A stretch of DNA of 64,000 nucleotides from Terriglobales bacterium. GTDB lineage: Bacteria > Acidobacteriota > Terriglobia > Terriglobales > Acidobacteriaceae. The notes below the pieces were generated by a model. That model was not told where the DNA came from. It did not search any database and saw nothing but the letters and a program-made list of their open reading frames with translations. The position numbers were made by a program, and so were the translations under genes. Numbering within the stretch: position 1 is the first letter of the stretch; each line of letters opens with the position of its first letter. The stretch covers positions 1 through 64,000 of the forward strand of contig JASHOU010000191.1 of NCBI GenBank assembly GCA_030038475.1. The letters are read 5' to 3'. Shown one piece after another: positions 8,805 through 26,018 of this stretch.

Positions 8805-10331
8805 ATGAGTGCGGCCCAGGAACTACGCGGCCTTCTCAAGCTTCGCGGACTGCAACTGCTCGCCCTTTCGCTTCTATTGATTCTGCTGGCATCGGTTACC
8901 TTCCGCGCTAGGCTCGCAGTTCGCGATCCGGATATTTGGTGGCACCTCGAAACCGGCAATTGGATTCTTCAACACCACGCCGTCCCTTTCGTCGGCATCT
9001 TTTCGCGCACCGCCGCCGCGCATCCGTGGATTGCCTATAGCTGGGCCTACGAAGTCCTGATGTCGTGCGCCTATTCCTGGTTTGGCCTGGTCGGCTTCGC
9101 CATGTTCGGAATCCTGCTCACAACGGCCGTCGCCTTCATCCTCTTCTGGATGCTGCATCGTCTCTCCGGCAACTTCTGGCTGGCGTGGATCCTCGCCCTC
9201 ATCGGAAATTTCGTTTTTCTCTTCAGTCTCATGCCCCGGCCCGTGTTTGTCACCATGATCCTGTTTATGGTCACGCTCACTTTTCTGCTGGAATCCCAGC
9301 GCACCGGCTGCATGCGGTTGTTGTGGTGGCTGCCCCTGGTTTTTGCCCTGTGGGCCAACGTCCACATCCAGTTCATCTATGGCCTTGCCAGCGTTGGCCT
9401 GTTTGTGGGGATCAACCTGCTGCAGCGGCTGGCAAGCCGGTTTGGCGTCGAGCTCGGCTTCATCCAGCCTCCCACGCTTCCTCTGTCCGGCCTGATTGGA
9501 GTTACATTCGCCTGTTTCGCCGCTACTTTCATCGGTCCTTATACCTACCACCTGTATCCCGTGGTCGCAGAATATGCGACCCAGCCCGTGCCCTATTCCA
9601 TGATTCAGGAATTACAAGCTCTCACCTTCACCTCCATCGAACAGTTTGTGCTGGTGCTGTTGACCGCGTCCGCATTTTTCGCCGTAGGTTGGCAGCGCAA
9701 GCTGGATCTGTTCAAGCTTTCTTTGCTGATCGCCGCCACGATTATTGCTTTTCGCTCCGCGCGCGATGCCTGGTTTGTAGCGATTTGTGCGGTAATGTTT
9801 CTTGCCGATCTACGCGCTCGGCAAGACTCGACTAAACAAGCCTCGCCAAAACAAGACTTGCCAAAAGAAGTCCCGCGAAAACCAGTGCTCAACCTTCCTG
9901 AACTAGCCGGCGTCGCCGCCGTCCTCGCCATAGGGATGTTGCTGCTTGCGCGTGATACCGGTTTCAACACCCGCGACCTGGATCGGGCCATCAGCCGCGA
10001 GTATCCCGTCGACGCCGCGAACTTCGTGCGTCAGAACTCGTTTTCAGGACCGCTTTATAACAATCTCGACTGGGGCGGATTCCTGATCTGGTACCTGCCT
10101 CAGTACCCGGTGGCGATCGATGGACGCACCAATCTCTATGGCGATCAAATGAACATGCTCATGTATAAGAGCTCTGGAGGCGACGAATCTTACACGTCCG
10201 ACCCATATCTCAATGAGGCGGGATTGGTGCTGCTCCCGAAAAAGCTTCCGCTGGCACAACTGTTGACCATCGATCCGCGCTTCCGCCTCGTCTATCGGGA
10301 TCAGTTAGCGTTTGTCTTTGCCCGTAACTAA
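8805..10331 (+). CDS. Polytopic membrane protein, possible GT-C-type glycosyltransferase fold (508 aa)
   Basis: The protein has about ten transmembrane helices, an early DPDIWWHLETG block just after the first helix, WANVHIQF in the middle, and a C-terminal soluble part with GGFLIWYLPQYPVAIDGRTN. Acidic residues in the first periplasmic loop and many helices are the layout of GT-C glycosyltransferases, which use lipid-linked sugars, but I see no diagnostic motif beyond that. It is clearly paralogous to the gene at 10350-11870, which faces it; the two stops are 18 bases apart. Between helices and tail, residues about 343-360 form a Lys/Pro-rich linker containing several near-repeats of KQxxPK. 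Confidence 0.7.
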   Translation: MSAAQELRGLLKLRGLQLLALSLLLILLASVTFRARLAVRDPDIWWHLETGNWILQHHAVPFVGIFSRTAAAHPWIAYSWAYEVLMSCAYSWFGLVGFAMFGILLTTAVAFILFWMLHRLSGNFWLAWILALIGNFVFLFSLMPRPVFVTMILFMVTLTFLLESQRTGCMRLLWWLPLVFALWANVHIQFIYGLASVGLFVGINLLQRLASRFGVELGFIQPPTLPLSGLIGVTFACFAATFIGPYTYHLYPVVAEYATQPVPYSMIQELQALTFTSIEQFVLVLLTASAFFAVGWQRKLDLFKLSLLIAATIIAFRSARDAWFVAICAVMFLADLRARQDSTKQASPKQDLPKEVPRKPVLNLPELAGVAAVLAIGMLLLARDTGFNTRDLDRAISREYPVDAANFVRQNSFSGPLYNNLDWGGFLIWYLPQYPVAIDGRTNLYGDQMNMLMYKSSGGDESYTSDPYLNEAGLVLLPKKLPLAQLLTIDPRFRLVYRDQLAFVFARN

Positions 10332-10349
10332 GTCTACTGACTCGATTCG

Positions 10350-11870
10350 TTACTGCCGCACCAGAACCGCCGCCACATCGTCTTGATAAGCTACGCGGAA
10401 TTGTGCCTTTAATACCGGCAGCGTCGTCAGCGCTTTCATCAGACCGGATTTCGGCTCCAGCAGAATCGTGTTGGCGGCAACAAAACGAGGCTCCGTTTCC
10501 AGACGCTCGGTGCCTTCGGTCACTTTGAAATATCTCTCGCTGCTTTCGTCGCCGTACAAATTCAAACGCCCATCCATCGCGACCGGATATTCCGGCAGAT
10601 ACCAGATCAGGAAACCACCCCACGAATACGCGTTGAACAGCGGACCAGGAAGCCGGTTCGCCCGGATGAAATCGCAAGCCTTCACCGGAAAGGTTGGACT
10701 GACCTGGGTCATCAATACATCGCTGTTTGGGATGCGGAGAATCGCCCCCAGAAGCACCGCCAGAACGAGCACGGCAACCAGCGGCTTTTCCCATTTCCAT
10801 CCTATGCTGTTCTTCGCTGTGCGCGCTTCGGCTTCATGCTCTCCCTCTGTCACGGCGTCGGCGATCACGGCAATTGCTGGAAGCACCACGCACCACACAT
10901 CCCGTTGCACCCGGAATGCCAGCATAGCAAGGATGCCCAACACGCCGAATTTGAACAGATCGCGCGAGCGCCGCCGCCCCAGCGCAAAAAATGCGGCCAT
11001 CACCAGCAGCAACAAAACATAATGCTGCGGACGGCGGAATGCCATGGGGTGCATCTCCTGGAAATTCTCGAATAGCACTTTGCTGTAGGCGGTCTGGAAC
11101 GCGTTGGCGTAGAGCTGAAAAGAATAAGGAGTCAGCAGCGTCGCGACCACGCAAAGTCCGGCGGCCGCGCCAATCTTCGCCAAAGAATGCTTCGGCTCCG
11201 GAAACGCACTCGCGCCGGAAATGTGCAACAGAAATTCTGCTCCCTCGGCCGCCAGAAACACGCCCAGCAGCAGCAATCCGTTCAAAAACTGCTCGTGTAG
11301 GTTGGCCCAGAAAAAGAAGAGCAAGGGCAACCAGAATAAAGGACGCACATCGTTGCGCTCCCGGCTTTGCAGTAACAGGAGCAGCTCAATGCCAAAAAAC
11401 AAAATTGAAAAAAGCATGGGAGACAATAGCAGATCGACCATGACGTATTGCGCAGTGGCCGACAGCACAACGGCGCACCAGAAACTTCCGCGCCACCCCA
11501 GGAAAAAGGTGACTACGGCCAGCGCCACCTTGAAACCCATCAGCAGCGCGGGAATCGCTCTCAGACCGAGCACTTTGTAAGCCACGGCCATTAAAACGTC
11601 GAATCCCCAGCTGCACGCAACCCACGGTTTATCCGCATACTGAGAAAACAGGCCGTTGCGAGGGAAAGTGTGCTGTTGCAAGATCCAGAGCCCAGTGCGC
11701 AAATGCCACCAGACGTTATTGTTGAGGAAGGCTGTGATGTGGAAAGACTCGTAGATTGCAGCGGCGGTTAACAACAACGCCAATGCGGCAATCCGCACTG
11801 GAACGCGGTCAAGAACACGGTGTGCTCGGCGCGCTACAACAACATTCGCCGCAACGTTTGTGGTCGCCAT
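10350..11870 (-). CDS. Polytopic membrane protein, paralogue of the preceding gene (506 aa)
   Basis: It has the same layout as the convergent neighbour: NNVWWHLRTGLWILQQ after helix 1, WANLHEQF in the middle, a RDVWCVV helix, and a tail with GGFLIWYLPEYPVAMDGRLN. The two proteins align along their full length, yet are clearly divergent. This one lies head-to-tail with the 12-haem cytochrome gene (start 11870, cytochrome stop 11878) and so is probably the last gene of that transcript. An envelope-glycan role is possible; no substrate can be inferred. Confidence 0.7.
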   Translation of the reverse strand: MATTNVAANVVVARRAHRVLDRVPVRIAALALLLTAAAIYESFHITAFLNNNVWWHLRTGLWILQQHTFPRNGLFSQYADKPWVACSWGFDVLMAVAYKVLGLRAIPALLMGFKVALAVVTFFLGWRGSFWCAVVLSATAQYVMVDLLLSPMLFSILFFGIELLLLLQSRERNDVRPLFWLPLLFFFWANLHEQFLNGLLLLGVFLAAEGAEFLLHISGASAFPEPKHSLAKIGAAAGLCVVATLLTPYSFQLYANAFQTAYSKVLFENFQEMHPMAFRRPQHYVLLLLVMAAFFALGRRRSRDLFKFGVLGILAMLAFRVQRDVWCVVLPAIAVIADAVTEGEHEAEARTAKNSIGWKWEKPLVAVLVLAVLLGAILRIPNSDVLMTQVSPTFPVKACDFIRANRLPGPLFNAYSWGGFLIWYLPEYPVAMDGRLNLYGDESSERYFKVTEGTERLETEPRFVAANTILLEPKSGLMKALTTLPVLKAQFRVAYQDDVAAVLVRQ

Positions 11871-11877
11871 ACAGATG

Positions 11878-13938
11878 TTAGTGTTTGCCGGGCATAGGCG
11901 ATTTGGAATTCACGACCGCTGTGACCGTGCCGTCCGGATTGTGACTGTAATTGTGGCACGTGAGCGTACAGGTATTGCTGCCGCGATTGTAGGAAATCGG
12001 AGAACGGAAATACCCGGAACTGGAGGTGTTCGCGGCCACAACCTTCAAATCGAAATTGACCATGCGGTCGCCCGACACATTCGACGAGGTCGCTCCCATG
12101 CCATGAGCGGTGTGGCACACCGAGCAGGAGAACCCCGCCTTGATATGCAATCCGTGCTTGCTGAAGCTGGCATTGGAGAGAATGTTGCTCAGGTCGTGGC
12201 ACTTGGCACATAACGAGTAGGGCCCGCCGGCGCCGGGATCGGTGACGGCGGGAAGAAGATTCTGAATCGCGCTTCCCGGACCGGCAACGGGCGGAATTCC
12301 CGGCGCTACCTGGCTGAACTCGTAGCGCCGCTCCAGAATATGCGAGAACTGCGAACCGTGCGGTCCGTTCGGCCCGGTGCCGCCAAATTCACGATTGTCG
12401 TCGCTGTTGTGGCAATCCGTGCACAGAATGCGCCCCGTAATCAGCCGCCCCTGGGTGTGGCCATCCAGATTCAGCATGTATTTCAGCAGGCTGGGTTGTG
12501 GCAGCGAACTCTTGTTCTCATAGATTACGGGATGGCTCGACTTCGCCGTAACTCCGAACTGCGGGATCAGATTCAGCGCGTCGCCGCCGCTTGCGGCGCG
12601 CAGCGGCGCGTAGCCGAACACGGCCAGAGTCTGCTTACCGGTACTCGTGCCGTGACAACGTAAACAGGTTTCGTATTGGTTGACCGCCGGATCCACCTCC
12701 GTCACTCCATCGGTCGCGCTGACCCCGGCCGTGCCGTTTTGCGACCCGCGAATGGCGGTCGACGCGAAGGAACTCGTTTGCCGCGCCGCGTGGGCATCGT
12801 GGCAATCGACACACGTTGCGTGACGGTTATTCTCCAGCACCAGGCTTTCGTCCGCCGTGTGCTTGTTGCTTCCCGCCGGATAGGGATGGCCGTCTGTCTT
12901 GGCAAACTCGCCATACACATTGAGAATTGCGGGAGTAAGGTTGGAGCCGCCATTGTGGCACGAAATGCAATTCTGGGTTGCCGCGTCCATGCCCGGAACT
13001 GCGGGAATCGGTCCAACCAGCAAATCCGCGCCGCCCGGAGCATTGTGCGACGTGTGGCAGGACATGCAGGCCTCCTGACTCACGGTGCGATACGGTCCAA
13101 TCTTCGATCCCTTGGATAGCTCATGCGCGGCCGTTGCGTGGATGCTTTCCCGCCACGCAGTGAAGGGATTATATTGGCTGGCCGTGGTGCGGCTCGTTCC
13201 CGCGCTCGCATTAGTCGTACCTGCAGTCGCTGCGGCTGCGTTGGCCGCTCCGGGTCGAGTGGCGCCGATCGGTCCCGGCTGCGTAACGTGGCAGGCGAAG
13301 CACAGGGCCGAGTTCGCATTATTCATTACCAGAAAATTCTGCGCGACCGGGTCAATGTCGTAAACGTGTGGATTATGACAGGTGTTGCACTGTACATTAC
13401 CGTTCACCAGTTGCACTGCGGAGTTGCCTGTGCTGCCGCTGCACAGAATCTGCAGCAGGTTGTCGCTGCTCGTGCAATTCAACGGGAGCTTGAAATTAAA
13501 AGGGTGGATGCCTTGCAGCGTGCCGATAAACAGATCCTGGCTGTTCATACTGCCGGTCATCTTAAGATTGGTGTATGGCACGTTCGTTCCCGGCGCAACC
13601 GTGCCATCGTGGCAGCTAAGGCAGAGATTGCTGGCCGAACCGAGCGTCGGCTCCTGCTCCTGGTTCACCTCGGTCGGGCTGCTATAAAGAATGTAATTGT
13701 TTTCCGTCGACAGCACCTGGCTCCACAGCGGCAGGTTCGGCAGGCTGTTGCTGTTCAGGCCGGAGTGCGGAGCGTGGCAGAATTGACAGGCCGGCAACGG
13801 CCCGCTGACCGGCCCCGGCGTCGTCGGCCCCATATTGTGAATTCCCAGCACATCTTGCTGCGTCTGCGCTTCGAGCGCGGTCGCCGTCGCGAAAAGTGAT
13901 GCGCACAACAAAGCGCGAACTATGACCAACCTCTTCAC
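11878..13938 (-). CDS. Secreted multihaem cytochrome c, 11 CXXCH motifs plus one CX3CH (686 aa)
   Basis: The GTG at 13938 overlaps the stop of the NHL gene by four bases. A signal peptide (VRALLCASLFATATALEAQ) directs export. Eleven CXXCH sites follow (CQFCH, CLSCH, CNTCH, CFACH, CMSCH, CISCH, CVDCH, CLRCH, CTDCH, CAKCH, CSVCH). A twelfth, near the C-terminus, is CTLTCH with three residues between the cysteines. Several occur as CHxPH or CHDxH, the paired-CXXCH pattern in which a neighbouring His can ligate another haem. With the adjacent barrel and NHL proteins it is a candidate periplasmic or outer-surface electron carrier. There is no sign of a catalytic site for nitrite or other substrates. 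Confidence 0.92.
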   Translation of the reverse strand: MKRLVIVRALLCASLFATATALEAQTQQDVLGIHNMGPTTPGPVSGPLPACQFCHAPHSGLNSNSLPNLPLWSQVLSTENNYILYSSPTEVNQEQEPTLGSASNLCLSCHDGTVAPGTNVPYTNLKMTGSMNSQDLFIGTLQGIHPFNFKLPLNCTSSDNLLQILCSGSTGNSAVQLVNGNVQCNTCHNPHVYDIDPVAQNFLVMNNANSALCFACHVTQPGPIGATRPGAANAAAATAGTTNASAGTSRTTASQYNPFTAWRESIHATAAHELSKGSKIGPYRTVSQEACMSCHTSHNAPGGADLLVGPIPAVPGMDAATQNCISCHNGGSNLTPAILNVYGEFAKTDGHPYPAGSNKHTADESLVLENNRHATCVDCHDAHAARQTSSFASTAIRGSQNGTAGVSATDGVTEVDPAVNQYETCLRCHGTSTGKQTLAVFGYAPLRAASGGDALNLIPQFGVTAKSSHPVIYENKSSLPQPSLLKYMLNLDGHTQGRLITGRILCTDCHNSDDNREFGGTGPNGPHGSQFSHILERRYEFSQVAPGIPPVAGPGSAIQNLLPAVTDPGAGGPYSLCAKCHDLSNILSNASFSKHGLHIKAGFSCSVCHTAHGMGATSSNVSGDRMVNFDLKVVAANTSSSGYFRSPISYNRGSNTCTLTCHNYSHNPDGTVTAVVNSKSPMPGKH

Positions 13939-15035
13939 TGGCCTGCCCCTCGCGCCTGTTTTGGCAGCCCGTGATAATGAAACACCTGCACCCGCCGGTT
14001 GAAAGAATCCACCACATACACGCGATCGTCGTGATCAATAAACACGCCCGAAGGCAACTGAAACTCGCCCAGTTGCGCGCCTCGCTTGCCGAAGTAGTAC
14101 AACAGGCGCCCCCGTCGATCGAAAACCTGTACCATCCCCGACAGCCCATCCACAACATACAGGTGGTCTTCCGAATCCACGGCCACGCCCTTGGGACGGA
14201 ACATCTGCCCCGGAGCATCGCCAATCTGGCCCATCATCCCTTCCGCATTGCCGTTACGCCCAAACCATTGCACGCGAAAGTTCATGGCATCCACCACCAG
14301 CAGGTCGTTGCCGTCGATGTGCAATTCTGTGGGGTAGTAAAATTCGCCGCCGTCGCTGCCATGCTTGCCGATGGTCTGCATCACGTGGCCTTGCATATCC
14401 AGCATGAAGATCTGGTCGCGCAGCGTATCGGTCACATAGATGCGCTGCGCCCCCGAATCCACGGCAATTCCCGTCGGCCGTTTGAAGTATCCTTCGCCTC
14501 CTTTCAAACTGCCGATCGCGCGCCGGTATTTGCCGCCGGCATCGAAAACAAATATCTTTCCCGACTCCGAGTCGGTCACATAAATATTGTCCTGCGCATC
14601 CAACGCCACGCATTGCGGCGCCAGCATCGCGTCCTTTTCTTTATCCCTGCGCTCGAGGAATTTGTACTTGTGGTGTTCGAAATCGAAAATGTGCACCCCG
14701 GCCGCTCCGGGGTCGGTGACGATGGCGCGCCCGTGCGAATCGACCGCGATGCTATACGGACGAACCATCATCCGGTATTCCGGTTCGCCCACCATCACAT
14801 TCAGAACCCGGGTCCAGAATTTCTCCTTGCCCAGCACTTCTTTTTGCGAGCTGAAGACGCCTTCGAATGTCAGCTTCCTGCCACCCTCCAGAAGCAGGTC
14901 GGGAGGTGCGGGTACGCTGAAAGTTTCGGGTTTCTTTGCCGCCCAAGACGGAGTGAGCAAAACGAGGATGAAGAAGACAATTCCCCACGGGCCGGGGCTC
15001 GCGCGTGACATCCCAGCTAGAATCCCTTGAACCAT
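13935..15035 (-). CDS. Secreted six-bladed NHL-repeat beta-propeller protein (366 aa)
   Basis: An N-terminal hydrophobic signal ends near WAAKKPE; the start could be the ATG at 15035 or, with a shorter signal, the one at 15011. Six NHL repeats follow, each in the pattern P-x-(G/S)-(V/I)-(A/F)-(V/I)-D with a YVxD strand, for example PYSIAVDSHGRAIVTD and PKGVAVDSEDHLYVVD. That gives one complete propeller. NHL propellers are usually binding platforms. Genes of this type accompany outer-surface cytochromes in Geobacter, and here this one is overlapped by both the barrel gene and the 12-haem cytochrome gene. Confidence 0.88.
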   Translation of the reverse strand: MVQGILAGMSRASPGPWGIVFFILVLLTPSWAAKKPETFSVPAPPDLLLEGGRKLTFEGVFSSQKEVLGKEKFWTRVLNVMVGEPEYRMMVRPYSIAVDSHGRAIVTDPGAAGVHIFDFEHHKYKFLERRDKEKDAMLAPQCVALDAQDNIYVTDSESGKIFVFDAGGKYRRAIGSLKGGEGYFKRPTGIAVDSGAQRIYVTDTLRDQIFMLDMQGHVMQTIGKHGSDGGEFYYPTELHIDGNDLLVVDAMNFRVQWFGRNGNAEGMMGQIGDAPGQMFRPKGVAVDSEDHLYVVDGLSGMVQVFDRRGRLLYYFGKRGAQLGEFQLPSGVFIDHDDRVYVVDSFNRRVQVFHYHGLPKQARGAGQ

Positions 15036-16858
15036 CTGGTTATCCCGAATGTGTATGAAGTTAGCATACTGGGCGGGGTGCTGGAAGGGAAGATGTGCTG
15101 ATTGAACTTGGTCGCGCCCGCGGTGAAGATCACTTTTCGGAATTCGTATTGCAACAGGCCGGTGTACAAGGTCGAGCCGTTGTTCGATGACAGCAGGGGA
15201 CTTATGCTGTTGCTGCCCGTCCTCTCATAGGCCGTGCTGATCGCCATGTTATGCACGGGATTCACCTTGAACGTGCCCCCATAACTCACGCCGTTATACA
15301 GGGTCGCGTTCTCGGGCGAAAGCACCGATCCCGGCACCGGCGTCTGCACCAATCCGCTGGCGGTGAACACTGAGGTCCCCTTGGATTGCGAATAATTCGC
15401 CGACATGGTGGCCCGCGTCCACAACAGCATGCTGTTGAAACTCTCTGAACGGTTTTCGTCGCCGGACACTTGTTGAAAGACGCTGCGCGCGCAATTGGCT
15501 ATGGAGACCCAGCGCAAATCATGAGGCAATCTCACCTTGACCGTGCCACCGTAATTCAGCGACGACGTCGTGTAGATCACGAGCAGGGTTTGCGTGTTCT
15601 GGTCGTAGCGGACAAAACTTTGAATATCCCACCGTCCGTGTTGCCGATCGTAAAAGACGTTGCCCACAAGTCCCGCCCGCGTGTTGCCTTCCTGATCGGC
15701 GCTGTCTACCACCCCCGCCATGATCCTCAATCCCTTGAGCAATCGCGAGAAGCCGTAGCTTCCGGTAACGCCAAATTGCGTCAATCCGTAGTCTTGTCCA
15801 TCGAAATACTGCTCCGAGCGCGTCGCGTATCCGCCCACCATCGCACCCGGCATAACCGTATAGTAGGTGCTGGCGGTCACCGAAAGGGAGCGCGACTCGG
15901 GGCTGACGATGCCCGCCACCGGCGCTTGCCCGTTATTGACAAGTTGCTGCTCGTAGCTGCCAAAAATATTGTCGGTATAGTTGGTCACTACGCTCACCGG
16001 CAGCCTTGGGAACAACAGGTTTACATTGGCGGTGAGGTTATCCGTGGTGCCATTGCTCTGGCCCGCGATCGAGTCGTCGGTGTCATAGCTGCCCCGGTTG
16101 AATGCCACCGAAAAGCTGCTGCCACGATAGGGAATTGGGCGGGAAGCGATCGCGTAATATTCGTTCGACGAGGTCTCCGTGTTTTCCGTCTCCCCATCGA
16201 CCAGACCCGCCACGCCTGAATTCGCATTCACATGGATGAAGCCGCCGGTCAGTTGGAAACCGTCGACAAGATAGGCGCTTCTGACATCGAAATTCTTATT
16301 GGTGGCTGCGGTTGTAGTTGCGCTGCCCAGCAACGAACTCGAACTGCTCCCCTCGGCATAACCAATCGAAAGGCTCGGTTTTTCGGGAAACAGAAAGCTC
16401 CAACCCAGGCCGATTCCGTGCCCGTTGTTTTCCGTAGTCAATCCCGCCACACCCGGAATCCCGAACGTTCCCGAGCTGTTCCAGTTTTGGTGCACGCTGA
16501 AAAACCCCGGATAATGGCTGGCGTTGAAAATGTTGAGCGTCCCCGTGTAGCCGCTGGAGTCGGTGATGGATTGGGAATCGGAGTTGTCCTGCGACCGGCC
16601 GTAGTAAGGCAGCATGCTGAACGACACGAAATTTGGATTGTAGTAATAGCCGTTGATAGTGCCCGACCCGCCCAGGCCCAGCGAATGGTCCGAGCCTTGC
16701 AGATTGCCAAATTCCCCAGCGTAATCAGCCTCGATGTTCCCGTTCGCGGTCGCATGAAAGTCGCCCAGAGAAATCTGCGCCCACGCCCCGCCGCAGAACG
16801 CCAGTCCCCACAGCAGTACCACTCCGGCCCACTCTCGAGATGTCATTTTCCATGACAC
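15017..16858 (-). CDS. Outer-membrane beta-barrel protein of the cytochrome cluster (613 aa)
   Basis: The GTG at 16858 follows GGGAG at a good distance. A signal peptide ends at GGAWAQ. The rest is made of alternating hydrophobic strands rich in Tyr, Ser, Gly and Asn, and ends in GITRWFKGF with a terminal Phe, all typical of an outer-membrane barrel. No plug or TonB box is visible. Its size (about 590 mature residues) is in the range of the MtrB/PioB/OmbB barrels that sheath cytochromes, although I see no CXXC near the N-terminus. Position between a parvulin-type chaperone and two cytochrome-associated genes suggests the barrel of a porin-cytochrome conduit; this is inference. Confidence 0.8.
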   Translation of the reverse strand: MSWKMTSREWAGVVLLWGLAFCGGAWAQISLGDFHATANGNIEADYAGEFGNLQGSDHSLGLGGSGTINGYYYNPNFVSFSMLPYYGRSQDNSDSQSITDSSGYTGTLNIFNASHYPGFFSVHQNWNSSGTFGIPGVAGLTTENNGHGIGLGWSFLFPEKPSLSIGYAEGSSSSSLLGSATTTAATNKNFDVRSAYLVDGFQLTGGFIHVNANSGVAGLVDGETENTETSSNEYYAIASRPIPYRGSSFSVAFNRGSYDTDDSIAGQSNGTTDNLTANVNLLFPRLPVSVVTNYTDNIFGSYEQQLVNNGQAPVAGIVSPESRSLSVTASTYYTVMPGAMVGGYATRSEQYFDGQDYGLTQFGVTGSYGFSRLLKGLRIMAGVVDSADQEGNTRAGLVGNVFYDRQHGRWDIQSFVRYDQNTQTLLVIYTTSSLNYGGTVKVRLPHDLRWVSIANCARSVFQQVSGDENRSESFNSMLLWTRATMSANYSQSKGTSVFTASGLVQTPVPGSVLSPENATLYNGVSYGGTFKVNPVHNMAISTAYERTGSNSISPLLSSNNGSTLYTGLLQYEFRKVIFTAGATKFNQHIFPSSTPPSMLTSYTFGITRWFKGF

Positions 16859-16871
16859 ACCGTCAGCTCCC

Positions 16872-17936
16872 TTATAGCTCTTGCACCTTCGCGTTCTGTC
16901 GGAGCTTCTTGTCTAACCCGGCGCGCAGGCGCTCGTATTTTTCTTTCTGCAACTCCTGGCGCAGCGGATCTTTCACCAGCTCAAACGGCGCCTTGCCCGC
17001 CGGCGTATGCGCATTCAAGCGGAAGAAAGTGTAGAAGTTGCCCAGTTGCAGCAGATCGCTCACCTGTCCCGGCTTCATGGCCAGCGCCGCCTTCACAATC
17101 TCCGGCGGCAATTTGTCCCGGTCCACTGCCTTGTGGTCGCCCATGTTCACGTGAAAATCGTCTTCGGAAACTTTTTCCGCCAGCAGCCCAAACTCCTCGT
17201 AGTTCTTCGTGGCCTTGGCTTTCGTCCACGCATCCTCCGCCCGTTTCCGCGCGTCCTGCTTCACCGCATCGTTGGCTTTATCCGACGGCATGATCGAAAT
17301 CGTCTGGATCACAAAGTTTTCTTTGTAGCGAAAAGCCTCCGGGTGCTTGTCGTAGTAAGCGCGCTCTTCAGCCAGCGTTACCTTGGACTTATCCTCAATC
17401 TCCGCCTTCAGCATCGCGTCCACCAGCAGCGAACGCCGGATTTTCTTCCGCAACAACTGCCGCGAGCCCTGCATCTCTGTCTTCAGGTATTCGTCGAAGG
17501 CCTCTGGAGTGGGAAATTGCGACCGGAAAGCGGTTTCCGCGCTCTGCAGTTTCGCTGCGGGCACCGTCATCTTTCTCCGTTCCGCCTCCTGATACACCAA
17601 CTCTTCGAACTCGATCATCTTCAACGCGCCCGTGCGGATCTCTTCCTCTTCCGCTTTGGGGAAGCCATTGTGCTGGCGTGCGTAAGGGAAGATCGTAAGC
17701 ATCTCGCGCAGCAGATCGCGGTCCGTCAGTTCAGTCCCGTTGATCCGCACTACGGGCTTGTCGCTGACTTGCATCACCGGGCTCAGCCCCGGACTGGCCG
17801 CGGGCGCGGAGTTCGCCGCTACCATGTTCTTGATCGGCGTCGCCTCATGCGAGGCCACCTGCGCCTGAGCCAGATTTGCCGGCATGGCCGCGAGCGCCAG
17901 CATCACGATCTGCAATTTGTAATTGGTGGTTTTCAC
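16872..17936 (-). CDS. SurA/PpiC-like periplasmic peptidyl-prolyl isomerase or chaperone (about 354 aa)
   Basis: I favour the GTG at 17936, which starts directly at the signal peptide (MKTTNYKLQIVMLALAAMPANLAQA); an ATG at 17963 adds nine residues. Residues about 60-190 are the helical SurA-N-like segment (RDLLREMLTIFPYARQ, EYLKTEMQGSRQLLRK). A parvulin-like domain follows (KLPPEIVKAALAMKPGQVSD, FYTFFRL), with a basic C-terminal helix. Isomerases of this class fold outer-membrane barrels and extracellular cytochromes. It lies 13 bases upstream of the barrel gene, which fits a dedicated folding role. Confidence 0.82.
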   Translation of the reverse strand: MKTTNYKLQIVMLALAAMPANLAQAQVASHEATPIKNMVAANSAPAASPGLSPVMQVSDKPVVRINGTELTDRDLLREMLTIFPYARQHNGFPKAEEEEIRTGALKMIEFEELVYQEAERRKMTVPAAKLQSAETAFRSQFPTPEAFDEYLKTEMQGSRQLLRKKIRRSLLVDAMLKAEIEDKSKVTLAEERAYYDKHPEAFRYKENFVIQTISIMPSDKANDAVKQDARKRAEDAWTKAKATKNYEEFGLLAEKVSEDDFHVNMGDHKAVDRDKLPPEIVKAALAMKPGQVSDLLQLGNFYTFFRLNAHTPAGKAPFELVKDPLRQELQKEKYERLRAGLDKKLRQNAKVQEL

Positions 17937-18004
17937 TTTCCCTTCTCGCTTCCCGGGGCACACCCCTCGTGTTGCCCCTCCCCAATCGATAAACTTGGTG
18001 ATTT

Positions 18005-18020
18005 GGTTAGCTGGCTAACC
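18005..18020. repeat. Perfect inverted repeat GGTTAGC-TG-GCTAACC
   Basis: Seven-base arms are separated by two bases. The left arm and its flank also pair imperfectly with a segment at about 18040-18060 (CCAGTTAGCCAAACCACCAG), giving a larger nested stem. It lies between the tetrahaem cytochrome and the isomerase gene. It may be an operator, a processing hairpin or a repeat remnant. Confidence 0.6.
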
Positions 18021-18071
18021 TTGGCCATCGTCATACTTCGGACCAGTTAGCCAAACCACCAGGCGTACTCG

Positions 18072-18116
18072 GTTCCCGGTTCTCAGAAAACCCCGCTCTC
18101 ACTGAGAACCGGGAAC
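18072..18116. repeat. Perfect 15-base inverted repeat between the tetrahaem cytochrome and isomerase genes
   Basis: The arm GTTCCCGGTTCTCAG (18072-18086) is exactly complementary to CTGAGAACCGGGAAC (18102-18116), with a 15-base spacer. The core GTTCTCAG/CTGAGAAC recurs in another intergenic region near 44.0 kb. It lies downstream of the tetrahaem cytochrome and could attenuate or stabilise its transcript, but no T-run follows on the minus strand. Confidence 0.7.
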
Positions 18117-18175
18117 TGAGAACTTTTGAAAAGCTGAGGGGAGAGAAACTTTCTCCCCTCAGGCCAAGCAACAAC

Positions 18176-19195
18176 TTAGAAGGCAGTCGTAATTCCATTG
18201 GCGCCGAACGCTTCGTTCGCTACGCCAAAGTGGCACTGCCGGCAGAACTGCGTGGTCGAAGGAGCAGACGTCGGAGTCCAGGCTGCGCCCGGGTTGTAAG
18301 GAGCATTGATGAAGAAGTACGTCGCATAGCTGCCAGCCGCGTTGCCCGCGATCGGCGAGTTGGCGCTGGACAGATAGACGTTCATCTGGTGCTGGTTGTG
18401 GCAGGTGGTGCAAACCACATACGGAATCTGGTTCGCAACATCCACTACCAACCCCTGGATTGCCGGATAGCCATAGTTCGTTACGAAATTGGAATACGGG
18501 CTCCCAGGGGCGATGGTATAGGTCACGGACGCCGAATTGTTGACCACGGTGGTCTGGAACGACAATCCGTAGTTTTGCAGCGATTGCGGGTAATTCAGGC
18601 CGTTGAAGTTCGCCAGATTGCCCACCGGGTGATCGTTGAGGTAATCGCCCACCGCTCCGCCGTCGTTGCCGAGCAGCGTCGGGATCACATTCGGGCCATA
18701 GATTGCACCCTTGGTTGCGCCCTGGCCATCGCCATTCGGCAGCAGAGCGTTGTTATATTCATACGATTGATTCAACATCATGGCGCCTTCGGAAACGTTG
18801 CCATCATGGCAGCTCAAGCAAACTGCAATGCCAGCAACCATGTTGTTCGAGGAGCTGAACCACTGGGTTTCGCCGCCAAAGTTGACCGTGTAGCCGAAGC
18901 CACCCGTGTCATAGCCGCCGCCAAACGAAAGGGTTTCCTGGGTGATCAGGGAGACATCTTGTCCCCACAGGTGCCAGTCACCTTCCTTGCCGCCGCCGCT
19001 CGTCAGGCCGGCCGGAGAGAGTGTGCCGCCGTTGCCGCGTGCGCCGCTGTGCGGAGCATGGCAGCCCGCGCAGCCGCGCCCGCCGTTGTTGTGTGCGCCC
19101 AGGACGTCGGTTTGTGGGATAAAGTTGCCGCTGCCCGCGGCCGCCATGCCCACGACGAGCAACGCAAACAGAACAATTAACATTACTTTCTTCAT
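18176..19195 (-). CDS. Secreted tetrahaem cytochrome c (339 aa)
   Basis: The ATG at 19195 has GGAGG at the right distance and begins a signal peptide (MKKVMLIVLFALLVVGMAAA). The frame stays open upstream to 19564, but that part has no coding character. Four CXXCH sites are present: CAGCH, CLSCH, CTTCH and CRQCH. Additional histidines (AHNNG, HAPH, DWHLW, NDHPVG, CHNQH) could supply the distal ligands. Four haems in a mostly haem-sparse Gly/Asn/Ser-rich chain is the size class of OmcE-type extracellular cytochromes. The gene has its own upstream region and is followed by the isomerase and barrel genes. Confidence 0.9.
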   Translation of the reverse strand: MKKVMLIVLFALLVVGMAAAGSGNFIPQTDVLGAHNNGGRGCAGCHAPHSGARGNGGTLSPAGLTSGGGKEGDWHLWGQDVSLITQETLSFGGGYDTGGFGYTVNFGGETQWFSSSNNMVAGIAVCLSCHDGNVSEGAMMLNQSYEYNNALLPNGDGQGATKGAIYGPNVIPTLLGNDGGAVGDYLNDHPVGNLANFNGLNYPQSLQNYGLSFQTTVVNNSASVTYTIAPGSPYSNFVTNYGYPAIQGLVVDVANQIPYVVCTTCHNQHQMNVYLSSANSPIAGNAAGSYATYFFINAPYNPGAAWTPTSAPSTTQFCRQCHFGVANEAFGANGITTAF

Positions 19196-19671
19196 AGTGT
19201 GAATCCTCCAATAAGGACTTTCGTTTTCAGTTGCACCTCTACTGCTGAAACACCGGTTTGAGATCTCGTCGTGAACTTCCCCTTGATTCAGAACCGGCCG
19301 GGATGGAAACTCTTGGACCATATCCAACCGTGTCATGTGCACGAGCCGCGCCTTATGGGCGATAAAGGCTGTCATTGCCGCACGACTGTAAATTATTGTT
19401 ACAGCGTGAGTTTTGGGATTAACTGTCGGTGTGGCAAATTTACACAGTGCCCCAATCCCTCTGGAAATGGGCTTTCTCCCACACCCATTTGGTGAAATGA
19501 CCCAACAGAAAAGCCAGAAGCATCCAGCGTTTTCACTCAGTTGGTGACGAAAAGTCAGGGACATCTAACTCGGTGGTAGAACTCGCATAGGGACAGTCGC
19601 CCTCGGCTGTCCGCAGGGCAAAGTCCTGTACTGGCAGGGTAAGAAAAGAGGAAGGCAGGTCTCAGGCAGCC
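19196..19671. other. Intergenic region upstream of the tetrahaem cytochrome
   Basis: No gene is visible. It should hold the leftward promoter of the tetrahaem cytochrome and the end of the NHL gene transcript. Features are a 6-base inverted repeat CTGTAA-N7-TTACAG at 19386-19404, a weaker GTGT/ACAC pairing at about 19430-19446, and a small stem GGACAG/CTGTCC at 19591-19612 that may help end transcription from either side. I found no GTGA-N6-TCAC site here. Confidence 0.5.
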
Positions 19672-20979
19672 CTATTGCGGTTTGCCGCTTGCTTCCGGCG
19701 CCTTTGCCGCAGCTTGCGGAGGCGGCGCAGCCGTGCTCGGGGGTGGCTGCACAGCCGGCTTCTTGTCATCCGTCTGCGCCGGTTTCTGGCCCGTTTTCTT
19801 CTCCATCTCAGCCTTGCGGCGATCGTATTCGGCTTGCGCCTCGGCGTTGGTGATGTAGCGGAACATCTGCACCCGTCCCTCGAATTGTTCACTGGTAAAG
19901 ACGCGATTCTTCTTGTCGATGGTGACCGCGGCCAGATCCTTGAACTCGCCGGGCAGGGAACCGAATCCGCCCATCACCAGGCGCAGATCGCCCTCAGGGG
20001 TAAACACCTGGAGCCGATTCGTCATCGCGTCCGCGACCCAGACATGGCCGTCGCAATCTACGGCAATCCCTTTGGGACGCGCGAAATCGCCCGGACCATC
20101 GCCATTTTTCCCGAAAGCGCGGATAAAGACGCCGTCGGCGTCAAATTCTTCGACCCGGTCATTTAATGTATCGGTGACGTACAGGTTGCCGTCTTTATCC
20201 ACTGCGACATTCGTCGGCTTCGAGAAATCGCCCGGCGTGGTCAGGGTGTGGTTCTTGCCCGCGGTCCCGATTTTACGCAGTAGCTTGAAATTGTCGGCAT
20301 CATAAACCAGCACCTGGTCCGATCCTGTATTGGCCACATAAAGAAAACGGTTTTCCTCGTCTATGGCAAGTCCCGCCGGATCGTCCATCACGCCCTCGCC
20401 GAACTGGCCTTGCAATTTGTGCTGGGCATTGAACACCAGCACGTGATTGTATTTGCCGTCGGTGACGAAAAGCCGGTCTGCGTCATCGATCGCCAGGCCG
20501 AAAATGCGGCCAAATTTGGCATCCACGCCGTGCTTGATGAACCCCGTGTCGTGGCTCTCCGGATCGAAAATAAACACCGCTCCCACCTTGGTGTCCGCCA
20601 CATACACCATGCCCTTGGAATCCACCGCCAGTCCGTAGGGAGTACCAAGCTGGAAGCGCGGTTTGCTGCCCGCTTTCTTGGCTGCGTCCTCGGGGCTGAT
20701 GCCCGCCACCCGGTCCATCCAGGATTTCTTTGGCTGGGCTTTCACCTCCACCTTCACCGGCTTCTCCGCCGAGAAATAATCCAGATACCTGACCCGCGCG
20801 ATGTTGGGCGGTTGCGGCCATACGATATTGGAGATGTCGAGCTTCGGCGCATCGGGCGGCTTCGCAGGAACTGGCTTGTTCTTGTCGGCGAAAACCGGGA
20901 AAGCCCAGATGGCAACCAGCAGCGTCAGCACCGCTGTGCAGAAGCTTCTACGCATCGTCTTTTGAATAATCTCACGCAT
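19672..20979 (-). CDS. Secreted NHL-repeat beta-propeller with a Pro/Ala-rich tail (435 aa)
   Basis: The ATG at 20979 follows AAGGAG. A signal peptide runs to FPVFAD. After a linker (residues 30-95), six NHL blades are visible, such as PYGLAVDSKGMVYVAD, PTNVAVDKDGNLYVTD and PKGIAVDCDGHVWVAD. The last about 60 residues are Lys/Pro/Ala/Gln-rich and look disordered. It starts two bases after the 16-haem cytochrome stop, so the two are one translation-coupled unit, as for the other NHL-cytochrome pair in this cluster. Likely a structural or binding partner of that cytochrome. Confidence 0.88.
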   Translation of the reverse strand: MREIIQKTMRRSFCTAVLTLLVAIWAFPVFADKNKPVPAKPPDAPKLDISNIVWPQPPNIARVRYLDYFSAEKPVKVEVKAQPKKSWMDRVAGISPEDAAKKAGSKPRFQLGTPYGLAVDSKGMVYVADTKVGAVFIFDPESHDTGFIKHGVDAKFGRIFGLAIDDADRLFVTDGKYNHVLVFNAQHKLQGQFGEGVMDDPAGLAIDEENRFLYVANTGSDQVLVYDADNFKLLRKIGTAGKNHTLTTPGDFSKPTNVAVDKDGNLYVTDTLNDRVEEFDADGVFIRAFGKNGDGPGDFARPKGIAVDCDGHVWVADAMTNRLQVFTPEGDLRLVMGGFGSLPGEFKDLAAVTIDKKNRVFTSEQFEGRVQMFRYITNAEAQAEYDRRKAEMEKKTGQKPAQTDDKKPAVQPPPSTAAPPPQAAAKAPEASGKPQ

Positions 20980-20980
20980 A

Positions 20981-22504
20981 TCAGCGCACTCCTTTTGTAG
21001 GACCTCCTTGCGCGGGAGGAGTTCCTTGTTTCGGACCTATCATACCCGTGTGACAGGTGTGGCAAAAATCCATGTTGGCGGCCTGATCCTTGACCAGCAG
21101 ATCGGGCTGCGCCGAAGCGTGCGGCTGATGGCACGTCAGGCAATTCAACGCGACCACGACCTTGGTCAGATCCTTCGGATCCACCAGGTCCGACACCGGA
21201 TGGCGTTCCACCGGATGTCCTAAGCCATACTCCAGCGGCAGAACTGGCACCTTGGCAAAATAGTTTTCCGGCAATTTCACTTTGCCGTCGAAGATGGCAA
21301 CTAGGTGTTCGCTCTCCAGCTTCTGCGGCCTGGCATTGGGACCGTGGCACTCCAGGCAAAGCGGATTCGGCGTCTTCGCCCGCAGCAGATGCTCGTTGTC
21401 ATTGCCGTGCGGATCGTGGCAGATGCCGCATCCCTGTTCGAACGCCGGCTGGTGCACATGTGCCTTCTTGCCTTGCTCAGCTTGGTCGCTGTGGCAGCCG
21501 AGACAAATCTCCACCGGCCCGGACTTCGGCAGTCCCGGCGAGTTGCTGGCGTGCGGATTGTGGCAATCCGTGCAGTCGCCCGCCGCGCCCGGATGCTGCA
21601 CCTTCGCTTTTTCAATCTGCTCGGCTTTATCCGAGTGGCACGTTACGCACAGCGATTTCACATCCGCCTGCGTCAATACCACTTTTCCATTCTTAGCCGG
21701 CGCGTGGCACACGTCACACTGCTTGTCGGCAAACGGAGGATGGGTGAACTTCGCCATCAATTTCGGAGCGGCCGACTGGTGCGGATCGTGACAGGTCAGG
21801 CAGTCGGCCGTTGCAAATGGTTGTCCCTGATGTGTCTTCACCAGATTGGCGTCCTTGACATCGTGACAATCTATGCACAGCGCGGGAGCGTCCTTGGTCA
21901 GGTGGAAATCGAATTCCCGTTTGCCCCGTTCCCCGGTCTTGTGAGTCGTATGGCACGCGTCGCAACCCATGTCCAGCGCCGGGTGGCGGCTGCCTTTCTC
22001 CGGAACATTCGTTCCCTGCGTGTGGCACGTCAGGCAAAGATTATCTTTTTTCTCTCCCGACGTGGCCTTCAGCAACTGATTCTTGTTGTCCGAAGTATGC
22101 GGATCATGGCAGGTCAGGCAATCTCGCACGGCGGGCGGGTGCACCTTTCCCTTAATTTGCGTCGCGTCTTTATCGCTGTGGCAGGTCAGGCAGATCTTAT
22201 ATGGAACAGTCGTGATCAGCTTGACTCGCGTGATATCCCTGTTCACGCGGATCTCGTGGCAGCTCATGCAGCCCATCGCAATCGCCGAATGCACAAACTT
22301 GCCCTTGGATTTATCTTCGTGGCATTCTAGGCACTTCTTGGGATCGGTGTTCGGCTCTAGCGGAACCGGATGAACCGCAGCCGCAGCCCGCAAAACCAGC
22401 AGCGCCATGCCCACAAAGAAGATAAGAATATTTGCGGTATGAGTGCGGACGCGAGCGTTCGGAACTTTCTTGCGCAACCACATCGGGTACAGGAGCAGAC
22501 TCAC
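20981..22504 (-). CDS. 16-haem paired-CXXCH cytochrome c (about 507 aa)
   Basis: I chose the GTG at 22504 because GGAGG lies four bases upstream; the ATG at 22483 is the alternative. An N-terminal hydrophobic helix (ILIFFVGMALLVLRAAAA) is a signal peptide or anchor. Sixteen CXXCH motifs follow at fairly even spacing, among them CLECH, CMSCH, CLTCH (five times), CDACH, CIDCH, CGICH and CHTCH. Many are followed by DPH or NPH, the paired-CXXCH signature. Such cytochromes act as periplasmic or outer-surface electron wires. Two Crp-like palindromes lie 325-395 bases upstream, in the region shared with the divergent resB. Confidence 0.92.
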   Translation of the reverse strand: MSLLLYPMWLRKKVPNARVRTHTANILIFFVGMALLVLRAAAAVHPVPLEPNTDPKKCLECHEDKSKGKFVHSAIAMGCMSCHEIRVNRDITRVKLITTVPYKICLTCHSDKDATQIKGKVHPPAVRDCLTCHDPHTSDNKNQLLKATSGEKKDNLCLTCHTQGTNVPEKGSRHPALDMGCDACHTTHKTGERGKREFDFHLTKDAPALCIDCHDVKDANLVKTHQGQPFATADCLTCHDPHQSAAPKLMAKFTHPPFADKQCDVCHAPAKNGKVVLTQADVKSLCVTCHSDKAEQIEKAKVQHPGAAGDCTDCHNPHASNSPGLPKSGPVEICLGCHSDQAEQGKKAHVHQPAFEQGCGICHDPHGNDNEHLLRAKTPNPLCLECHGPNARPQKLESEHLVAIFDGKVKLPENYFAKVPVLPLEYGLGHPVERHPVSDLVDPKDLTKVVVALNCLTCHQPHASAQPDLLVKDQAANMDFCHTCHTGMIGPKQGTPPAQGGPTKGVR

Positions 22505-22897: not shown

Positions 22898-23073
22898 GAA
22901 CTGCGTGTGATGTGTGAAATGCCGGTCGAACAAGATACGACTGAGTGATTTAGCCCAAGACAAACTGAACGCTCTTCCGATTCTGTTTGTTAAGCCTTGC
23001 CGTATCTTGAGTTTGCAATTATGAAAGCATCTGGCGCAGAACTTGCACTTCGGCTCTGGGGAATGGGGAAAAT

Positions 23074-24591
23074 ATGGAGTTAAATAAAAAAGGTTTCACG
23101 CACAAACTCTGGCGCACTATCGCTTCCATCCAGACGGGCGTGGTTCTGCTGATCCTGGTAGTCATCTTTGCAGCAGTTGGAACCATCGTTCTCCAGCGCC
23201 CCGCAACCGACCCTGACGAGATGCAAACCGCATACTCCCCTCAGGTGCTCTCGATTCTCGACGCACTGCGCCTTACTGACGTCTTTCATTCCTGGTGGTT
23301 CCTGGGATTGGTCGTGCTGGTCAGTCTGAGCATCATCGCCGCTTCCATCGACCGTTTTCCCAACGCCTGGCGTTACTTCTCACGCCCATACAAATATCCC
23401 GATCCCACTTTTCGCCGCGCCTTGCATCCGCAGAGAACTATCGCCATCTCCAATTCGGACGAGGAGAGTGGCCTGGTCGCCGCCGAGCGCGCACTCCACT
23501 CCATCGGTCTGAAACCGGAGCGCGTAATTCGTGAAGATCACTTTGGAATTTTCGCCGAGCGGCACCGCATCTCGGAAATGGCCGTCTACATCGTTCATGC
23601 CAGTCTGCTGCTCATCTTCTCTGGATGGATCATCGACGGCGTCTATGGCTGGCGCGGAACGCTGACCCTGAATGAAGGTCAGAGCTCAAACGTAGTCGAA
23701 TTGCGCGACGGCAAAACCCGAACCCTCCCCTATGCTATCCGCTGCGATTCCGCCGGCCAGGAGAATTACAAAGACGGTACTCCGAAAAAGTGGTGGTCGA
23801 AGCTGGCCGTCGTCGAAGGCGGCCGCGATGTGAAGAGCAAAGAAATCGTGGTCAATGATCCCTTGCTTTATCGCGGCGTGCGCTTCTATCAATCGAGCTT
23901 CGGCGAGACCGCCAAGGTGCAAAAACTGGTCATCTCGGCGACCCCGAATCCGGCTTTCAAGAGCAGTTCTACTCTAGCGGCCCTTAATTCATCCCGCCAA
24001 AACCCCAATTCTGATCCCGATAACATAAAGGAGATCGCCTTCACCGTCGGCGATACCGCCGATCTCGACACCGATACCAGCTTGCGTTTCGCCGAATTCA
24101 TCCCCGATTACGCCGTCCGCGACGGCCAGGTCTATAAGCGCTCGAACGAAATCGGCAGTCCGGCCGCTCATCTGGTCGTGACCTCAAAAAGGGCGGGAAA
24201 GAGCTTCGACGTGTGGTTCCCGAAGCTCGAAGAGATAGCCGATAACTCCCAGGCTCCCTATCTGCTGGAACCGAAAAATCTTCAACTCGCCCACTTCACC
24301 GGCCTCCAGGTTTCGCACGAGCCAGGCCAGTGGGGCATCTGGTCGGGCGTCGTGCTGATGGGAATTGGACTGACATTCGTGTTTTACGTCGTTCATGTGC
24401 GCTTCTGGGCGCTGCCGGTGCGCGACGCGAAAACCGGCGCGCTCTCCCTGTGGATCGGCGGAAGCGCCAACCGCAACCGCGATGCCTTTGAACAACGCTT
24501 CAACGATCTCGCCGCATCGGTCGAGGAAGAACTCAAAACCAATTCGTTGACTGCTCTGCGCGAGCAGGTCGTTACCGCTGCCGGCAACTGA
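23074..24591 (+). CDS. resB: Cytochrome c biogenesis protein ResB/Ccs1 (505 aa)
   Basis: ResB is the partner of CcsA in System II cytochrome c maturation; together they move haem to the outside of the membrane and attach it to apocytochromes. Three N-terminal helices ([53 protein letters not shown]) are followed by a large periplasmic domain with [14 protein letters not shown] and [12 protein letters not shown], then a fourth helix near residue 430. The length is normal for a bacterial ResB. It is immediately followed by ccsA, as expected, and faces the multihaem cytochromes whose maturation it would serve. Confidence 0.93.
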
Positions 24592-24614
24592 ACCGGCTTA
24601 TCGGAGGGATGTTA

Positions 24615-26018
24615 ATGTCACACGCAAAAGCAGAGCAACCGCAGCCGGCAACCGGCGCCACCCTGATCGTAGGCGTCGGATTGTCCGTCGCGTTCCTTCT
24701 GTTGATAGCACTCCTAAACGTGGTCAAGAGCGGGAATCTATTGAGCGAAACCAACCTGCTCTACACGACGCTCATCTTTTACGCCGGCGCTGGCGCGTTG
24801 TACCTGGGATTTGGCGTCACCGGCACCGAAGCGTACGTCAAGTTCGCATCCATCGCCACCTGGCTCGGATTGATCGCCAATACCGGCGCCATCGCCCACC
24901 GCTGGTACGAAGCCGGGCATCCGCCCTTCGCCAGCGTCTACGAAATGCTCCTCAGCTTCGTCTGGACGCTCGCCGTGCTTACCCTGGTGGCGGAAAAGAA
25001 ATATGACGTGAAAGTCATTGGCACGGTCACCATGCCGGTGGCGATTGTCGGCGTGGTGCTGATGCAGTTATTGCGAACCGACGTTCACCCGCTCGTGCCG
25101 GCCCTGCAATCCACCTGGCTGCATGTGCATGTCACCCTCGCCATGTTTGCCTACGCCGCCTGCGCGTTGAGTTTTGCTCTCGCCATGATGTTCCTCATCC
25201 AGGACAACATGAAGACCGAAACCTTCCTTGCCGTGACCAGCGCGACCACGGTGGCCATCTACGCTGGCGTCGTTCTTACTCGCTTCGAAAAATGGGGTGG
25301 GCTGAGCCTGACCGCGTGGAATCCGGAATCGAAGTCGGAAATTTTCATCTCCAAGGGCGTGCGTTTGTTCGTTACCGTTCCCGACCTCGGCTGGCTCATG
25401 CTGCTGGCCCTTCTGGTCGTCGCTTCGCCTCTGGTCTTCTACGGCCTAGCGCGCTTCAGAAACAATTATGGCTTCATTGCCCTTGCCAATCGCGCTGTCT
25501 TTCTCAGCATTCTTCTTCAGATCATGACGTTGATTATGTTTGTGCTGCGCGCGCGGGACGCAAGTTATCCCTCGCTTGACGCAGAAGGATTATTCCCGAC
25601 TAGTCTCGCCGCCAGTCCCTTCATACTGTCGGGTTTGGTCGGCGGCGTCTTTATCTCGCTGCTCTATCTCCTGCTGCTGTGGCGTCGTCCCGATCTGGAG
25701 CGCCTGCTGCCCACGACCGACAACCTCGACCGCATCACTTACAAAACCATCTGTCTCGCCTTCCCCCTGCTTACTCTGATGATTGCCTCCGGAGCCTACT
25801 GGGCCAACCAGACCTGGGGTTCGTATTGGAGCTGGGATCCAAAAGAAACTTGGGCGGCAATCACCTGGCTCGTCTACGCCGGTTATCTGCACATGCGCAT
25901 CACCCGCGGATGGCGTGGCCGTCGCGCCGCTTACTTCGCCATTCTCGGTTTTGCCGTCGTAATGTTCACCTTCTTCGGCGTAACTTATTTGTTGCCCGGA
26001 CTCCATGCTTATGCTTAG
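24615..26018 (+). CDS. ccsA: Cytochrome c assembly protein CcsA/ResC (467 aa)
   Basis: GGAGGG at 24603-24608 touches the ATG at 24609 but is seven bases from the ATG at 24615, so the second is chosen. The protein is a multi-helix membrane protein whose tryptophan-rich haem-handling loop is plain: [18 protein letters not shown]. Conserved histidines sit in flanking loops ([23 protein letters not shown]). With ResB it forms the System II haem lyase. The gene end overlaps the start of the histidine kinase, so the maturation genes and the two-component system share a transcript. Confidence 0.93.

Follow-up and report, generated by a model that had tools for sequence, protein, structure and literature searches.

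The secretion of cytochrome nanowires and their anchoring in the outer membrane are still matters of speculation (PMC12307469). Among the closest described systems, a predicted operon, gsu0615-0617, lies beside omcE (PMC1829397), and an eight-gene block, GSU2500-2493 (the Osc genes), is linked to OmcS maturation and secretion (PMC12977616, citing Shen 2025). Here we describe a seven-gene cluster in a 64,000-nt stretch of DNA from a Terriglobales bacterium (contig JASHOU010000191.1, contig C64 in the 4.46-Mb draft genome of an uncultured soil member of the Acidobacteriota), to which we refer as the window. Judged from sequence comparisons and structural models, this cluster likely encodes, though we say so with some reserve, an outer-membrane porin-cytochrome conduit together with an OmcE-type cytochrome filament. 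We favor this reading because of the homology of its cytochrome MHC12 to OmcE, the family links of its tetrahaem cytochrome (TETRA), the relationship of MHC16 to MtrA, the MtrB-like fold of its predicted barrel, and conserved synteny.

The seven genes lie on the minus strand at positions 11878-22483 and are arranged, in order of transcription, as MHC16, NHL2, TETRA, PPI, BARREL, NHL1, and MHC12. Facing them on the plus strand (23074-26018), across an intergenic gap that comes to about 590 bp because we place the MHC16 start at 22483, are the System II cytochrome c maturation genes ResB (23074-24591; PF05140, E = 3e-81), which also adjoins the cluster in relatives, and CcsB (24609-26018; TIGR03144, E = 1e-74, above cut-off). 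Pfam backs the multihaem cytochromes, the NHL repeats, Rotamase plus SurA_N, and ResB, while NCBIfam backs CcsB. A sequence-only reading of the window had named all of these genes, with the cluster on a single strand and System II across a divergent gap, and every one of them was found as it described. Its count of 32 haem motifs stands only if a conserved CX3CH in MHC12 is included; the cluster holds 31 CXXCH motifs (16 in MHC16, 4 in TETRA, and 11 in MHC12) plus that one CX3CH. Its gene coordinates were right overall, except that TETRA starts at 19195 rather than at the opening of its reading frame and MHC16 probably starts at 22483. At the DNA level, the genome contains 396 haem motifs compared with 168 for a reversed-pattern control, and 31 of them fall in the window block, so their clustering is not due to chance. 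ResB and CcsB also adjoin omcE in Geobacteraceae, making the System II linkage a feature shared with omcE; here and below, the Geobacteraceae comparison concerns orthologous loci across the family rather than G. sulfurreducens, with OmcE orthologues that are 57-64% identical.

MHC12 (11878-13938, minus strand) consists of an OmcE-like tetrahaem domain (about residues 13-218) fused to a domain with seven CXXCH motifs and the single CX3CH, whose residues (C657, C661, H662) are invariant in 13 homologues. Searched against the PDB, an MHC12 profile matched OmcE (7tfs) with an E-value of 1e-22 over residues 9-212 and chain N of 9yuq, a 16-copy protein, with an E-value of 5e-19. As CXXCH motifs inflate profile scores, we masked them in hhalign comparisons of OmcE, MHC12, TETRA, and MHC16. 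OmcE and MHC12 nonetheless aligned over 194 columns with an E-value of 1.3e-18, compared with 0.06-0.2 for controls with MHC16. Alignment profiles were required for these matches, as single-sequence searches of the PDB with MHC12 or TETRA returned nothing significant. By these profile comparisons, the N-terminal domain of MHC12 can be firmly assigned as an OmcE homologue beyond its haem motifs. The sequence-only reading had interpreted the cluster as a porin-cytochrome conduit; it had the conduit parts, but it missed the OmcE identity of this domain and was to that extent incomplete.

In a tree of MHC12 proteins, all Acidobacteriota fall on one side of a fully supported branch, with the window protein inside an Acidobacteriaceae-type clade. 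In some Geobacteraceae (loci L239, L240, and L241), the OmcE-like and octahaem halves are instead separate genes lying side by side, close to NHL and PPI genes; this split arrangement supports a functional tie between the two halves of MHC12.

TETRA (18176-19195, minus strand) is the proposed filament subunit, a role suggested by its family relationships. Its relatives align from the methionine at 19195, although the reading frame itself opens at 19564, giving a protein of 339 aa with four CXXCH motifs. Outside these motifs exactly four histidines are conserved (H35, H49, H189, and H269), the number required for four bis-His haems, which helps to place TETRA in the OmcE superfamily. (A paralogue at L034:18752 lacks H49, the distal His of the CXXCHxxH motif.) A TETRA profile matched 9yuq_N with an E-value of 1.6e-8, and the family alignment shows all four haems to be colinear. 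We dropped an assignment from direct hhalign comparison with OmcE alone, as the score came mostly from the haem motifs: an E-value of 3e-16 unmasked fell to 1.4e-3 once the haems were masked. Because this masked match is weak, membership rests on the bridges through MHC12, whose profile TETRA matched with an E-value of 2e-7 after masking, and through 9yuq. Together, these comparisons give moderate support for placing TETRA in the same superfamily as OmcE.

TETRA is tandemly duplicated or repeated in relatives, with extra or tandem copies beside the cluster at L034 6694-8858 and in L053, L061, and L063, a pattern that suggests duplication of the presumed filament subunit. These copies, and the full set of ligands that TETRA retains, speak against a different interpretation, in which an MtrAB-type conduit operates without any filament: MHC16 within the barrel would reduce surface-bound MHC12, and TETRA would be a nonpolymerizing soluble or surface reductase or shuttle. 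The resemblances of MHC16 and the barrel to MtrA and MtrB fit this alternative, as does the fact that TETRA is unlike OmcE in length and sequence. However, the structures behind two close family profiles are the OmcE filament (7tfs) and a 16-copy assembly (9yuq), and we consider a filament-free conduit unlikely.

MHC16 (20981-22483, minus strand) and the barrel are the conduit candidates. MHC16 is a 16-haem, MtrA/DmsE-related cytochrome with a Sec-type N-terminus; signal-peptide reading makes the ATG at 22483 the more plausible start. It matched MtrA of the Mtr complex (6r2q_A) with an E-value of 6.6e-17, and we propose, from this homology, that it serves as the wire from the periplasm to the barrel. 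BARREL (15017-16858, minus strand) encodes a predicted outer-membrane beta barrel, an assignment that draws on an AlphaFold2 model, a fold match, and cross-phylum homology. The model, built with 14 homologues, shows 28 beta strands without a plug (mean pLDDT, 76), and a Foldseek search with it placed MtrB (6r2q_B) second by E-value and first by TM-score among the matches listed (0.45 by query length). We propose that the barrel is the conduit or exit pore. Together, MHC16 and the barrel may form an MtrA/MtrB-like pair beside OmcE-like proteins, in keeping with the porin-cytochrome parts recognized in the sequence-only reading.

Elsewhere in the same genome, contig C86 (locus L272, 5469-8856) carries a decahaem-type MtrA/DmsE-like cytochrome (329 aa) beside a barrel-like protein of 804 aa, the two forming an MtrAB-like pair of their own. 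Such a pair could be where electrons cross the outer membrane if the cluster were instead assembly or secretion machinery only, its barrel, PPI, and NHL proteins exporting and folding the cytochromes. Parts of these kinds are also found at the Geobacter omcS locus, in a block linked to OmcS maturation and secretion (PMC12977616, citing Shen 2025). An export role alone would nevertheless leave dedicated multihaem proteins hard to explain, as MHC16 is MtrA-related and the octahaem domain of MHC12 is encoded beside the barrel gene, and we regard it as rather improbable.

The remaining cluster proteins are two exported NHL beta-propellers, NHL2 (19672-20979; PF01436, E = 1e-27), whose position is kept in relatives, and NHL1 (13935-15035; PF01436, E = 1e-23), whose gene overlaps the start of MHC12 by 4 bases, and PPI (16872-17963; PF13145, PF00639, and PF13624), a SurA/parvulin-type chaperone-isomerase, all on the minus strand. 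The sequence-only reading had proposed a search for the gene set in other Acidobacteriota; about 25 of them share both the arrangement of the genes and the number of haems. In the relatives, the complete order is preserved, with ResB-CcsB too if the contig is long enough, and the haem counts are 16, 4, and 11. Identity is about 68% for MHC16 (64-70%), 65% for NHL1, 55% for NHL2 and PPI, 50% for MHC12, 45% for TETRA, and 34% for BARREL. Within the genus, TETRA and the barrel thus diverge fastest and MHC16 slowest, as expected for surface versus internal parts. A search for TETRA gave matches in 18 of the genus's 24 genomes (our own included) and in none of 17 genomes drawn from elsewhere in the family, order, and class. 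Across the phylum, 47 of the 396 genomes sampled, from 34 of the 210 genera, have MHC12-type matches, lone OmcE-like tetrahaem proteins counting among them, indicating that the trait is patchy in Acidobacteriota. One named carrier strain is Occallatibacter savannae AB23.

A profile scan of named genomes found MHC12 relatives in Acidobacteriota, Verrucomicrobiota, Planctomycetota, Nitrospirota, Pseudomonadota, Desulfobacterota, and Bacteroidota, accompanied across these phyla by a related module of an OmcE-like tetrahaem cytochrome, NHL, barrel, NHL, and the fused 12-haem protein. Among the distant loci, 37 extend more than 8 kb upstream of MHC12. Of these, an NHL gene lies directly upstream of MHC12 in 35 (NHL1 has this position in 49 of 51 distant loci), a large haemless reading frame fills the barrel slot in 34, an OmcE-like tetrahaem cytochrome is present in 35, and 36 have at least two NHL genes. 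PPI is found in only 7 of the 37 and is thus not essential to the module. Reading frames that fill the barrel slot at these loci share homology with the window barrel (E = 1.2e-18 with direct hits removed; negative controls, >0.01). In other phyla (L093, L114, L122, L128, and others), a five-haem MHC16-like protein adjoins the barrel slot, in the place that PPI takes in the Acidobacteriota cluster. The sequence-only reading had staked its claim against two outcomes, barrel homologues that are plain transporters and a cytochrome set without conserved co-occurrence, and neither was found.

The recurrence of the same barrel, NHL, and OmcE-like set across phyla also argues against a periplasmic respiratory or detoxifying enzyme system (reducing nitrite, sulfur, or metals), whose multihaem proteins would be catalytic and whose barrel would be an unrelated transporter. 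Weak matches to NrfA-, NrfH-, and DmsE-like models point toward such a system, but they are short and below cut-off (MHC16 scored 181 bits against the DmsE-family model, with a cut-off of 192), and no catalytic haem motif variant was seen. We consider this explanation very improbable.

Starting from the gene content, homologies, synteny, ligand residues, and modeled barrel topology, we infer the localization of the proteins and the path and direction of electron flow in a conduit with a filament as follows. Electrons would pass from quinol through membrane cytochromes to MHC16, which would carry them through the periplasm into the barrel. The genome encodes NapC-type and multihaem-cytochrome b membrane proteins that could supply these electrons. 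On contig C172 (locus L271, 7251-13933), four genes encode a NapC/NirT-type cytochrome, a 713-aa multihaem protein, a cytochrome b561-like protein, and a multihaem-cytochrome b561 fusion that we take to resemble CbcL; this cluster is a candidate quinol gateway that could take electrons from quinol. At the outer face, the octahaem part of MHC12 would touch the conduit and accept electrons from MHC16, and its OmcE-like domain would present a filament-type subunit interface and pass electrons into the TETRA filament. TETRA would be exported, dock on MHC12, and polymerize, one haem being ligated by a His of the next subunit, as in OmcE. PPI may fold the barrel, TETRA, or both, NHL1 and NHL2 may serve as scaffold or assembly factors, and ResB-CcsB would attach haem.

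The adaptor idea stems from the membership of MHC12 in the filament subunit family and from the position of its gene next to those for the barrel slot and NHL1 at almost all distant loci examined. We suggest, tentatively and knowing that it may well prove wrong, that the fused MHC12, present in at least six phyla, serves specifically as the subunit that starts or anchors the filament, mimicking a filament subunit on one side and joining the barrel conduit on the other.

Several points weigh against a conduit joined to a filament. The respiratory role of OmcE and OmcS filaments is itself disputed (PMC11077965), and the function of MHC12 as an adaptor is purely one that we infer. Direct similarity between TETRA and OmcE is weak after haem masking, and the AlphaFold2 model of TETRA (pLDDT, 40) is too poor to read a fold or interface from. 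The barrel matched no family in Pfam or NCBIfam, and hence no curated porin family, and its likeness to MtrB is at the level of fold, with a TM-score of 0.45 that is near those of TonB-dependent receptors. Finally, the stretch read around the Geobacteraceae OmcE loci contained no full-length MHC12 and no barrel.

A sigma-54-like site, TGGCGCAGAACTTGCA, lies at 23032-23047 on the plus strand, 27 bases before the ResB ATG. Of 20 related regions, most have a similar site close to ResB (23 sites versus 3.4 expected, the regions being related rather than independent). Across the whole window, sigma-54-like matches are at chance level, and the ResB-proximal site is the only one that conservation supports. 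Downstream of CcsB, also on the plus strand, are genes for a sensor histidine kinase (26005-27243), 73-87% identical at the same place in relatives, and an NtrC-family sigma-54 response regulator (27447-28910), the start of which is 94% identical in L031; the pair is kept in relatives where the contig extends that far. Through sigma-54, the linked kinase and regulator may activate ResB-CcsB at the least. Beyond the regulator genes, a 766-aa reading frame on the minus strand (29870-32170) reads as an unusual protein. On the other side of the cluster, two related polytopic membrane proteins of 506-508 aa are encoded at 8805-11870, copies of which recur near TETRA or MHC12 genes in some relatives. 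One of them (10350-11870, minus strand), an optional neighbor with no Pfam family, begins 8 bases after MHC12 and is directly downstream of it in some relatives only. A family search with both proteins returned no match, and their neighborhood is inconsistent, so we rejected a glycosyltransferase-like role and kept them out of the mechanism.

The cluster offers a concrete, widely conserved candidate for a nanowire anchor. Because genes for the proposed filament, adaptor, and conduit stand together with those for haem attachment and a conserved pair of regulators, it makes the anchoring question readily testable. If the proposal is true, the MHC12 anchor defines a wire-on-porin architecture joining conduits and nanowires. 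The cluster also singles out some soil Acidobacteriota, patchily distributed, as candidates for extracellular electron transfer.

The sequence-only reading had stated that no described system has this set of genes, which is too strong given a locus of nanowire type with an OmcE-like domain and parallels in Geobacteraceae. Like MtrCAB, the cluster has an MtrA homologue (MHC16) and a barrel whose model superposes best on MtrB, but MHC16 has 16 haems rather than 10, the barrel has 28 predicted strands, and OmcE-like proteins stand in for MtrC. The putative multihaem cytochrome c of 9YUQ (chain N, 16 copies), matched by both the TETRA and MHC12 profiles, differs in having 218 aa. Geobacteraceae OmcS loci encode hexahaem cytochromes, NHL, a barrel-slot reading frame of 685-783 aa, two more reading frames, a PPI of about 600 aa, 26-haem and 16-haem cytochromes, and NHL, a content that fits the GSU2500-2493 block (PMC12977616). 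The OmcS block and our cluster alike surround a filament cytochrome, a proposed one in our cluster, with a barrel, PPI, NHL proteins, and a 16-haem cytochrome. The OmcS-locus PPI matches the window PPI (E = 5e-11), and the OmcS-locus barrel matches the cross-phylum barrels (E = 7e-10), although compared directly with the window barrel it gives an E-value of 0.03. The block differs in gene order, in having hexahaem OmcS where the window has a tetrahaem protein, and in adding the 26-haem protein and two reading frames; an OmcS-like hexahaem subunit and a 26-haem protein are absent from the window, and the OmcE-octahaem fusion is absent from the block. Geobacteraceae OmcE orthologues lie in the order ResB-CcsB-10h-8h-NHL-OmcE, consistent with the predicted operon beside omcE (PMC1829397). 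Geobacter OmcE (7TFS) shares with the window proteins its tetrahaem layout with CXXCHxxH, CLSCHDG, and NDHP motifs, and its locus shares an NHL protein, MtrA-like multihaem genes, and adjoining ResB-CcsB. At 339 aa, the filament candidate of the window exceeds OmcE in length and has diverged strongly from it, and compared with the OmcE locus, the window cluster adds the OmcE-octahaem fusion, a barrel, a second propeller, and PPI.

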